Positions 26,276-29,186 of a DNA stretch of 64,000 nucleotides are shown piece by piece (the first letter of the stretch is position 1; each line of letters opens with the position of its first letter). Below the pieces are notes generated by a model. It did no database searches. It worked only from the letters and a program-made list of their open reading frames with translations, and was not told where the DNA came from. Origin of the DNA: Modicisalibacter tunisiensis (GTDB lineage Bacteria; Pseudomonadota; Gammaproteobacteria; Pseudomonadales; Halomonadaceae); assembly GCF_020148005.1 (NCBI RefSeq), contig NZ_JAGXFD010000001.1:1949739-2013738 (forward strand), in the 5' to 3' direction. Made by a program: the position numbers and the translations under genes.

Positions 26276-26696
26276 TGTTCACTCCTCATGCAAGGTCATC
26301 ATTGCCCGGGAAGCATCCCGCCCCGGGTTGCCATCGGCGATGGCGTTCTGGTGCCTTGGCTACGCATGCCGGGCCGGATAAGCGCCCGAGGCTGCACTGC
26401 GTCAGGGTCATAAGTTCTCCAAGACCTTCGCTCCTGGCGCCCGGGTCAACGGCGGCTTGGCGCTCAGGTGGTAGCCGGGCGACGGTCAGTGAATCACGGT
26501 GGCGATACCCTGTCCGGCGCCGTGATTTCACTATGGTGCAGGGCGGCATATCCCACAAAGCGCCATTGGGCGCACAAGTGGTTGTAGCTTAACTACACGA
26601 TGGACGCCCGGCGTCGGGATCGGTAGCGGCACTACGAGATCGGTGTGAATGAGTGCGATGGCGGTTCCGGCATCGCACCTTGTCGGAGGTGGGCTC
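26276..26696. other. 421-bp non-coding gap before the cupin gene
   Basis: No frame here has codon use or a start site that I would defend. A short palindrome TGTAG-CTTAA-CTACA lies at about 26584-26598, ahead of the cupin gene, and could be an operator. The left part must hold the promoter of the small minus-strand gene. Confidence 0.35.
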
Positions 26697-27008
26697 ATGG
26701 ACAATCTGTTTGCCGGGATTCCCGAGCGGCTCGATGACGAGCTGTTCGAGTCGATCATCGAGAACGAGGCCGTGACGGTGGAGCGGATCGTCTCGCGCGG
26801 GCAGCGTTCGCCGGCATGGGGCTGGTACGACCAGGCGCGCGACGAGTGGGTGGTGGTGCTCAAGGGGCGTGCCGTGCTGGCGTTCGAGCGAGGGGAGGAG
26901 ATGACCCTGGCACCCGGCGATCATGTGGTCATTCCGGCGCACATGCGCCATCGGGTCGCCTGGACCGATCCCGACGGCCCGACCGTCTGGCTGGCGATCC
27001 ATTACTGA
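26697..27008 (+). CDS. Small single-domain cupin
   Basis: This 103-residue protein starts at the ATG seven bases after CGGAGG. The single beta-barrel shows the two cupin motifs in reduced form: a first motif around GQRSPAWGWYDQARDEWVVV and a second, APGDHVVIPAHMRHRVAWTD, with a His that could bind metal. Stand-alone cupins of this length and sequence type are common and mostly uncharacterised. Metal-dependent enzyme and small-molecule sensor are both possible. The gene appears monocistronic. Confidence 0.82.
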   Translation: MDNLFAGIPERLDDELFESIIENEAVTVERIVSRGQRSPAWGWYDQARDEWVVVLKGRAVLAFERGEEMTLAPGDHVVIPAHMRHRVAWTDPDGPTVWLAIHY

Positions 27009-27081
27009 TGCGGCTTGTCGGGGTGGTAGAGGAAGGGGGAATGATGCACCGGAAGCGGGCGAGAGCAGCGTTCGGGGGCCC

Positions 27082-27118
27082 AAAAGAGAGCACCCAGCCC
27101 CTGATGGCAAGGGCTGGG
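27082..27118 (-). terminator. Intrinsic terminator of the candidate sRNA
   Basis: The stem CCCAGCCC / GGGCTGGG (27093-27100 with 27111-27118) has a 10-nt loop. On the minus strand it is followed by TGCTCTCTTTT. It could also stop plus-strand cupin transcripts, but there the T-run begins ten bases later. Confidence 0.6.
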
Positions 27119-27286
27119 CGATGACTGTCTCTTTTTCTTGAATATTGTTGTTGTTGGATTTCTTGGAAGCTGGCGTTGTTCTTGCTGATCTTCTCCAGCG
27201 GCGCCGCTTGTCGTGGCGCTTGAATTCGTCGCATGGCGGGTCGTGGACCGGCGGCGACGTAACAGTGAGCTGGCGTGCTCCGCCTC

Positions 27287-27311
27287 GTCCCCCTCGCCGG
27301 GGGACTTTTTT
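27287..27311 (+). terminator. Plus-strand intrinsic terminator inside the sRNA region
   Basis: A perfect 7-bp stem GTCCCCC / GGGGGAC (27287-27293 with 27299-27305) is followed at once by TTTTTT. It would stop rightward transcripts from the cupin gene before exaC. On the minus strand the same stem follows an A-run and should not terminate. Confidence 0.75.
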
Positions 27312-27665
27312 GCATCTTTTGTTGTTCTTGTGTGATGCGTCTTGCCGCCGTGTCTTGTGCTTGCTCTTCGACGGCCTTCGGTTGTTCTTGGTCTTGTTGC
27401 CGTTTTACCCCGTCACCGTCGATCTGCCTTGTATTTCTTGCCGACGTCCTGCGTCGTTGCGATGGACTCATGATCGATTTTGGCCCCCTCCGAGACAACT
27501 CCACTTTGGTGGCATAGCCGTTCGTCGATCCCGGCAGGGGGCCGGGCAGTACTGCTGCGGCACCGGTTCATTCAGCGACTCATACCTTCGGACTATGTCG
27601 CGGCGGGGCGTCGTGACCAAGACTCAATCGGTGCCACTCATCACAACCCAGTCAGGAGCACAGCC

Positions 27666-29186
27666 ATGATCTACGCCAATCCGGGGAGCGACGGTGCCAT
27701 CGTCGCGTTCGAAAAGCGCTACGGCAACTATATCGACGGCGAGTTCGTCGCCCCGCGCAAGGGCCAGTATTTCGACAACATCAGTCCCGTCAACGGTGAG
27801 GTATTCTGCGAGATACCGCGCTCCACCGAGGAAGATATCGAACTGGCGCTGGACGCCGCGCACCGGGCGGCGCCCGCCTGGGGGCGGACCTCGGCCGCCG
27901 AGCGCAGCAACATCCTGCTGAAGATCGCCGATCGTATCGAGCAGAATCTGGAGATGCTGGCCGTCGCCGAGACCTGGGACAACGGCAAGGCGGTCCGCGA
28001 GACCCTCAACGCCGATCTGCCGCTGGCGGTGGATCACTTCCGTTACTTCGCGGGCTGTATCCGCGCCCAGGAAGGCACCGCCGCCGACATCGACGCCAAC
28101 ACCGTGGCCTATCACTTCCACGAGCCGCTGGGCGTGGTGGGGCAGATCATCCCCTGGAACTTCCCCATCCTGATGGCCACCTGGAAGCTTGCCCCGGCAC
28201 TGGCGGCGGGCAACTGCGTGGTGCTCAAGCCCGCCGAGCAGACGCCGGCGTCGATCCTCAAGGTCATGGAGCTGATCGGCGATCTGCTGCCGCCCGGGGT
28301 GGTCAACATCGTCAACGGCTACGGCGAGGAAGTTGGCCAGGCGCTGGCGACCAGCAAGCGCATCGCCAAGATTGCCTTCACCGGCTCGACCCCGGTGGGT
28401 TCGCACATCCTCAAGTGTGCCGCCGACAACATCATCCCCTCCACCGTGGAGCTGGGCGGCAAGTCGCCGAACATCTACTTCGCCGACATCATGAACGCGG
28501 AGCCCGAGTTCATCGACAAGGCCGTCGAAGGGCTGGTGCTGGCCTTCCTCAATCAGGGCGAGGTCTGCACCTGCCCGTCGCGGGCGCTGATCCAGGAATC
28601 GATGTACGACACCTTCATGGCCAAGGTGATCGAGCGTACCCAGGCGATCAAGCGCGGCAACCCGCTGGACACCGACGTTCAGGTCGGCGCCCAGGCCAGT
28701 CAGGAGCAATTCGACAAGATCATGTCGTACATGGAGGTGGCCCGCGAAGAGGGCGCCGAGTTCCTCACCGGCGGCGGCAAGGAGAGCTTCGATCCGGCCT
28801 ACGACAAGGGCTTCTACATCCAGCCGACCCTCCTCAAGGGACGCAACAGCATGCGTGTGTTCCAGGAGGAGATCTTCGGTCCGGTGGTGGGCGTCACCAC
28901 CTTCAAGGACGAGGCCGAGGCACTGGATATCGCCAACGATACCGAGTTCGGCCTCGGCGCCGGCGTCTGGACGCGGGACATGAACGTGGCCTTCCGCATG
29001 GGTCGCGGTATCCAGGCCGGGCGCGTATGGACAAACTGCTATCACCAGTATCCGGCGCATGCCGCCTTCGGGGGCTACAAGAAGTCGGGCATCGGCCGCG
29101 AGACCCACAAGATGGCACTGGAGCACTACCAGCAGACCAAGAACCTGCTGGTCAGCTACGATACCAATCCGCTGGGCTTCTTCTGA
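27666..29186 (+). CDS. exaC: NAD-dependent aldehyde dehydrogenase, ExaC/AldB type
   Basis: This 506-residue enzyme oxidises acetaldehyde and similar short aldehydes to acids. The start at 27666 follows CAGGAGCACAGCC. Catalytic features are in place: the cofactor loop [12 protein letters not shown] (residues ~239-250), the general base Glu in [13 protein letters not shown], and the nucleophilic Cys in [15 protein letters not shown] near residue 301. The N-terminal [20 protein letters not shown] and the C-terminal [21 protein letters not shown] are characteristic of the ExaC/AldB subgroup. It appears monocistronic. The candidate sRNA is encoded antisense to its upstream region. Confidence 0.93.

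Follow-up and report, generated by a model that had tools for sequence, protein, structure and literature searches.

Does the stretch of A-rich DNA between a small cupin-like gene and an exaC-like aldehyde dehydrogenase gene, in a salt-loving bacterium that groups with Modicisalibacter (Halomonadaceae), encode an RNA of the CrcZ type, and is such an RNA the organism's own crcZ? An Hfq/Crc-binding RNA of this kind had been proposed for the minus strand in an initial annotation of the window, by which we mean the whole 64-kb stretch of DNA that was analysed. Our comparison with related genomes suggests a more composite picture, in which the A-rich RNA would share its locus with a conserved small RNA read from the opposite strand. 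The features on which the argument is built are collected in Table 1, and the two predicted transcripts are referred to below as the minus RNA and the plus RNA.

Table 1. Predicted features of the locus and its neighbours, in window positions
Feature	Position	Strand	Remarks
A-rich minus RNA, predicted, ~380 nt	27083..27463	-	seven AAnAAnAA; putative CrcZ-like decoy, antisense to the plus RNA; ends predicted from promoter and terminator
ACTU-like box CCACCAAAGTGGAG with -35 TTG (27498-27496)	27496..27513	-	recurs across stand-alone loci
Predicted sigma-70 promoter TTGTCT-N17-GATCAT	27470..27498	-	-10 spacing conserved in most box-bearing loci
5' hairpin of minus RNA, CGACG-CAGGA-CGTCG	27442..27456	-	pairing read by eye
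3' terminator-like hairpin of minus RNA	27081..27120 (hairpin 27091-27120)	-	near-perfect dyad, also a plus-strand dyad; tail CTCTCTTTTG
Sigma-54 small RNA (plus RNA), predicted, ~115 nt	27197..27311	+	covariance model R1 match 27231-27313 (+), E 1.3e-14, the window being one of the 14 sequences used to build R1
Sigma-54-type -24/-12 site TGGCGTTGTTCTTGCTG	27171..27187	+	score 12.3; M. coralii TGGCGTAGTTGTTGCTA, 13.0
Conserved stretch CAGTGAGCTGGCGTGCTCC, candidate pairing region	27263..27281	+	last 18 bases identical in 14/14 aligned loci, themselves retrieved by similarity to this element
Intrinsic terminator of plus RNA, T6 tract	27287..27311 (stem 27287-27305)	+	the mid-molecule stem of the initial annotation
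exaC-like aldehyde dehydrogenase gene	27666..29186	+	divergent neighbour; name from the initial annotation and by eye
Small cupin-like protein gene	26649..27008	+	by eye; also adjoins the locus in L046 and L037

An A-rich array away from the classical crcZ place

At least seven AAnAAnAA motifs within some 260 bases of the minus strand had been reported, and seven are indeed found in 258 nt (positions 27389, 27329, 27326, 27183, 27155, 27152 and 27139), together with the three copies of the A-rich 10-mer CAAGAACAAC that had been described with them. Dinucleotide shuffling of the minus strand at 27082-27463 yields 0.67 motifs on average (2000 shuffles, a fraction of 0.0005 of which reach seven), and over the whole window ten matches lie on the minus strand, three of them outside the locus, and one on the plus strand. 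The minus RNA would be rich in A and poor in U (A 0.335, C 0.293, G 0.267, T 0.105); the excess of A over T at the locus, 0.52, is among the highest in the window without being unique, another part reaching 0.51. The minus strand folds well (27475-27085, z -5.1; 0/100 shuffles equally good), and folding of the 381-nt RNA predicts that five motifs are unpaired to at least 93% and the other two to 74% and 69%, against a mean of 51% for all bases.

The relatives compared include Modicisalibacter coralii (G011), M. xianhensis (G009), M. luteus (G004) and Halomonadaceae bacterium T82-2 (G002), the last being identical to the window across the 661-base query. The M. coralii locus holds only three strict motifs, and identity to it falls to about 50% over the motif-rich stretch (about 50% at 27410-27311), which is A-rich and T-poor in both species; that this make-up is kept at such low identity fits selection on composition and motifs over sequence, as expected for a protein decoy. 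The same alignment bears on coding capacity. The initial annotation had stated that no protein frame accounts for the region, yet a minus-strand frame of 191 aa crosses it, open over 26929-27504. That this frame is a gene is scarcely credible, as it spans both the conserved element described below and the end hairpin and is broken by frame-breaking gaps in the M. coralii alignment, on account of which we do not take it as coding. As for the neighbourhood, the exaC-like gene does adjoin the locus as annotated, and M. coralii and G027 have an exaC-like gene no more than ~4 kb from it, but the position looks incidental, most relatives examined having other neighbours.

The genome encodes Hfq, Crc (best solved relative Pseudomonas Crc 4jg3, E 1.2e-78; next to a pyrE-like gene by eye) and CbrA (E 4e-287). 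It also holds, after cbrA/cbrB and before pcnB (cbrB and pcnB assigned by eye from frames), a second array of 12 AAnAAnAA in 313 nt (L083:7867-8179, G000:C1 about 515866-516178). Because this second array occupies the classical place, the minus RNA is not this organism's crcZ. A motif cluster is found at the cbrB-pcnB place in all ten CbrA-bearing genomes among the 13 genus genomes searched (L083 and L084-L092). The pattern given in PMC8871633 for CbrB-activated sigma-54 promoters is TGTTAC-N12-14-GTAACA-N15-19-GTAACA; in the window's genome this full site lies upstream of the array with four mismatches, a TGTTAC/GTAACA pair among its parts, and a sigma-54-like site is present there as well. 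The abstract of PMC8871633 calls CbrAB unique to the Pseudomonas family; Modicisalibacter and its close relatives have these CrcZ-like arrays between cbrB and pcnB. Full-length CbrA matches are absent from three genus genomes, G001, G006 and G008, and G001 keeps a box-bearing copy of the locus (L036); since it does so without such a match, the minus RNA could matter more there.

What, then, remains of the likeness to CrcZ? The minus RNA resembles CrcZ, CrcY and CrcX of Pseudomonas and Azotobacter in predicted size, in its many AAnAAnAA motifs, in its A-rich and U-poor composition and in a host that has both Hfq and Crc. It differs from them in lying away from the cbrB-pcnB place, in being preceded by a predicted sigma-70 promoter and a CrbR-type box where they depend on CbrB and sigma-54, in the sigma-54 small RNA on its opposite strand, and in lacking convincing similarity beyond the motifs. 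A true family paralogue of the CrcY/CrcX type under CbrB would agree with the size, motifs and composition of the minus RNA, the last being nearly the same in the 12-motif array (A 0.34, C 0.29, G 0.25, T 0.12). It is nevertheless very improbable: no CbrB half-site is found upstream of the minus RNA (minus strand, 27700-27480), blastn between the minus RNA and the genome's own array returns only matches of 8-21 nt, mostly motif-like, and the Rfam CrcZ model RF01675 gives the window RNA 9.9 bits against a cut-off of 95, a weak test given that under strict filters this model finds nothing in any of the 37 family genomes searched, the array at the classical place included. The proposal of a CrcZ-like Hfq/Crc RNA is partly supported: the motifs, their predicted unpaired state, the composition, the encoded partners and a recurring sigma-70-type promoter speak for it, and the points just given speak against classing the RNA as CrcZ. 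Among titles and abstract openings of the open-licence papers retrieved we find no description of the minus RNA.

A predicted sigma-54 small RNA on the opposite strand

A DNA search of 58 genomes indicated that an element of ~45 nt inside the locus recurs through the Halomonadaceae, and one locus search returned at least 80 loci among 117 stretches. The element corresponds to the 3' part of the plus RNA and consists of a hairpin, the near-invariant GAGTGAGCTGGCGTGCTCC, a terminator and a T-run. The stable mid-molecule stem that had been assigned to the minus RNA is part of it: the stem exists, but comparison gives its conserved role as the intrinsic terminator of the plus strand. The possibility that the element belongs to the minus RNA alone was rejected, because the consensus folds better on the plus strand, at -24.8 kcal/mol with 33 G-U and 2 A-C cells, the minus strand giving -16.3 kcal/mol with 13 G-U and 4 A-C.

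The covariance model R1 matches in 113 of 151 family genomes, representing 15 of 24 genera; outside the family, 8 genomes of 115 in the order search have matches, all at 27-33 bits, which we take to be chance terminators. In an alignment of 49 copies the proportion of paired cells is 97.7% against a shuffle mean of 93.2%, and 10/18 pairs have changes on both sides against a shuffle mean of 3.3, neither value being reached in 500 shuffles; this alignment was fitted to R1 and leans towards structure, and 36 of its 49 rows were taken by exact match to the conserved 19-mer, so that helix 2 is invariable in them. From one comparison of loci, duplicates (L047, L129, L169) and copies without a T run (L147, L195) were left out. 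Folds of single sequences vary, from z -3.47 in L046 and -3.37 in L033 to -1.63 in the window (10/200 shuffles as good) and -1.36 in L035. A scan of the window at Rfam gathering level gives no match, the plus RNA included. Among the weaker Rfam matches, isrD (RF01388) was rejected, at 22.4 bits against a cut-off of 37 and aligned mainly on the terminator, as were RAGATH-25 and two snoRNA families, all below cut-off.

For the regulatory comparison we used 134 non-redundant loci, 75 of them stand-alone and 59 by amtB/glnK; copies identical over 140 nt were removed, as were loci that had no T run or too little flank, and near-identical strains remain in the set. With a matrix made by hand from the consensus and a cut-off set at 12 (10.5 is already reached by 35% of shuffles), a sigma-54 site scoring at least 12 lies upstream of 57/75 stand-alone loci (3.0% of shuffles) and of 2/59 amtB-side copies. 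NtrC-type dyads over the 99% shuffle level, scored with a matrix drawn from these same loci, accompany 48/75 stand-alone and 13/59 amtB-side copies; the window's own dyad, at 12.2, is below its 99% level of 12.7. Taken together, we consider it highly probable that the plus RNA is a real transcript, which would make it a member of a covarying small-RNA family that has matches in three quarters of the family genomes searched and that no Rfam model recovers above its cut-off in the window.

NrsZ is a small RNA dependent on NtrC and sigma-54, and GlnZ derives from a 3'UTR. The plus RNA would be comparable to them in its sigma-54 site, in the predicted NtrC-type enhancer of most relatives and in a copy beside the nitrogen gene amtB. 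It is unlike them in lacking an Rfam match over cut-off, in being convincing only in Halomonadaceae among the genomes searched, and in having an antisense partner.

Several further copies were seen. A second copy of the 3' part of the plus RNA in the window's genome (L047, G000:C1:751716-751805) lies between amtB and glnK in transcript direction, and is possibly a 3'UTR-derived RNA of amtB that shares the conserved stretch. Genomes of genus g2 (G014, G058, G073 and others) have three R1 matches each. The exact 19-mer also occurs without a T-run in a Verrucomicrobiia MAG (L195), by chance or contamination.

The predicted minus-strand promoter, its box and the RNA ends

Upstream of the minus RNA the strand reads CCACCAAAGTGGAGTTGTCT-N17-GATCAT, and the start predicted from it, at about 27463, is the one that the initial annotation had given. 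The -35 element is adjoined by a box that resembles the ACTU motif. According to PMC5715377, this motif is needed for CrbR activation of acetate genes and lies directly before a sigma-70 promoter, and the transcripts of acs and actP carry AAnAAnAA just past their start. The likeness to the ACTU promoters of the CrbS/R (MxtR/ErdR) system (PMC5715377) is twofold, an inverted-repeat box directly before the predicted sigma-70 -35 and Crc motifs early in the transcript, as for acs and actP. The minus RNA departs from them in having no recognised protein product and in the divergence of the window's box. Within ~7 kb of acs lies a 1349-aa frame whose N-terminal half resembles CbrA, and we infer it to be CrbS-like.

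A box facing the locus is present in 28/75 stand-alone loci, among which are those where the box was first noticed, against a shuffle expectation of 0.05; reversed boxes are found in 0/75, and among amtB-side copies the count is 0/59. In stand-alone loci that had not been seen before the box was defined, it occurs in 13 of 23. Moreover, a -10 hexamer with A2 and T6 follows at a spacer of exactly 17 nt in 22/28 box-bearing loci, and in 0-2/28 at spacers of 14-16 or 18-20 nt. The strict box pattern matches the window's own genome three times, as often as its reversed control, with two of the three matches intragenic by eye and acs missed. Against a matrix built from four published ACTU sites, the window's box scores 7.6, under the 95% shuffle level of 8.7, and three of eight other box-bearing loci (L125, L189 and L192, at 10.8-12.3) exceed the 99% level of 10.3. 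The matrix finds a site ahead of this genome's acs at 13.6, and a score of 13.3 is also reached elsewhere in the 64-kb window. Given that the window's box scores so low, control of its minus RNA by CrbR would have to be read from the series of loci.

At the 3' end a terminator with a U-tract had been claimed; the hairpin exists, but the minus-strand U-tract is imperfect, and weaker still in the nearest orthologue (CTCTCATTTGGG), and the dyad is near-perfect on both strands. No minus terminator of this end-hairpin type was found in M. coralii (L046). Across the series, minus terminators follow the element in 8/28 box-bearing and 0/47 box-less loci (0 and 0.6% in shuffles), under a rule that was loosened after hairpins had been spotted by eye, and 20/28 show none; a stricter rule, in which closing A-T pairs consume the U-tract, leaves 2/28 against 0/47.

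These observations can be set against the view that only the plus-strand sigma-54 RNA is real, and that T-rich DNA close to its promoter and an A-rich spacer arisen by chance account for the minus-strand motifs. In favour of this view, the motif at 27183 overlaps the sigma-54 site of the plus strand, immediately upstream of which a T-rich stretch contains another three, the end dyad could be part of the cupin-like gene on the plus strand, and the association of motifs with the box before the U-tract, discussed below, was not repeated in unseen loci. We nonetheless regard this view as quite unlikely, for it is opposed by the orientation of the box and the 17-nt spacing of the -10 on the minus strand, by the distribution of minus terminators, and by an identity to M. 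coralii of 0.90 where the minus RNA would begin (27470-27431). The box region (27530-27491) is likewise conserved between the two species, at 0.88. In our estimate the minus RNA is probably a real transcript.

Decoy, antisense partner or both

A search of related genomes for the motif array had been proposed as a check in the initial annotation. Within 150 nt before the U-tract, AAnAAnAA occurs on the minus strand in 11/28 box-bearing, 2/47 box-less and 1/59 amtB-side loci (Fisher P 2e-4 for 28 against 47 loci, an optimistic value, related species not being independent). The association lies in loci already seen (10/15 with box, 1/37 without) and failed to repeat in unseen ones (1/13 with box, 1/10 without). 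This failure, and the 17/28 box-bearing loci that are motif-free before the U-tract, mean that titration cannot be the general role. Counted over the whole span, which runs across the element and the sigma-54 region, the mean number of motifs is 3.57 with box and 0.85 without, and this difference was repeated in unseen loci (3.38 against 0.6).

As predicted, the plus RNA is contained entirely within the span of the minus RNA, to which it is perfectly complementary, so that the two would counteract one another. One may ask whether the main role of the minus RNA is that of a cis-encoded antisense regulator of the sigma-54 RNA, by which CrbR acetate sensing would shut off a nitrogen-type RNA, with the Hfq motifs secondary or serving as pairing aids. 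The box faces the plus RNA in 28/75 loci while only 11 of these 28, and 1/13 of the unseen ones, have motifs before the U-tract, and in several loci the predicted minus start lies about at the U-tract of the plus RNA, both of which would suit such a regulator. The seven motifs and the A-rich make-up kept at ~50% identity in the window's lineage would however be left unexplained, and we consider it unlikely, if worth retaining, that antisense regulation is the main role. As many box-bearing loci have no motifs before the element, antisense control of the plus RNA may still be the older or more general role of the locus.

The reading that we prefer, and put forward tentatively as falling a little short of an even balance, is that of two overlapping and mutually antagonistic RNAs, the minus RNA being in this lineage an Hfq/Crc decoy under a CrbR-type box and the plus RNA a sigma-54 small RNA. 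The minus RNA, of ~380 nt, would be read from the sigma-70 promoter, ahead of which lies an operator box of the CrbR (ErdR) type. With seven Hfq/Crc motifs in A-rich segments that are predicted to be mostly unpaired, it would titrate Hfq/Crc in this lineage and so relieve catabolite repression while the acetate system is active, alongside the classical CbrAB-CrcZ arm, which the genome apparently has as well. The plus RNA, of ~115 nt, would depend on sigma-54, with a predicted NtrC-type enhancer in most relatives, and the two would antagonise each other by pairing or by transcription interference. Both promoters, the structure of the plus RNA and the enrichment of motifs in the window are supported by the sequence comparisons; from there we infer the existence of the transcripts, control by CrbR and NtrC, titration of Hfq/Crc and mutual antagonism. 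Taken separately, the decoy function of the minus RNA in this lineage is evenly poised in our judgement, and its antisense function is somewhat more doubtful.

With a decoy-like RNA and a nitrogen-type RNA predicted on one stretch, carbon and nitrogen control could be coupled there. In its strongest form this would be a toggle, in which a CrbR acetate signal yields the Hfq/Crc-sequestering RNA, a nitrogen signal of the sigma-54/NtrC type yields the opposite small RNA, and the two signals cancel at the RNA level, a scheme that we think rather improbable as it stands. CrcZ-type decoys are not known to be controlled by any system other than CbrAB. If true, an acetate-regulated decoy besides CbrAB-CrcZ would reveal that Hfq/Crc control in halophilic Halomonadaceae has a second input, and its overlap in antisense with a sigma-54 small RNA would allow cross-talk between carbon and nitrogen to be tested directly at one locus.
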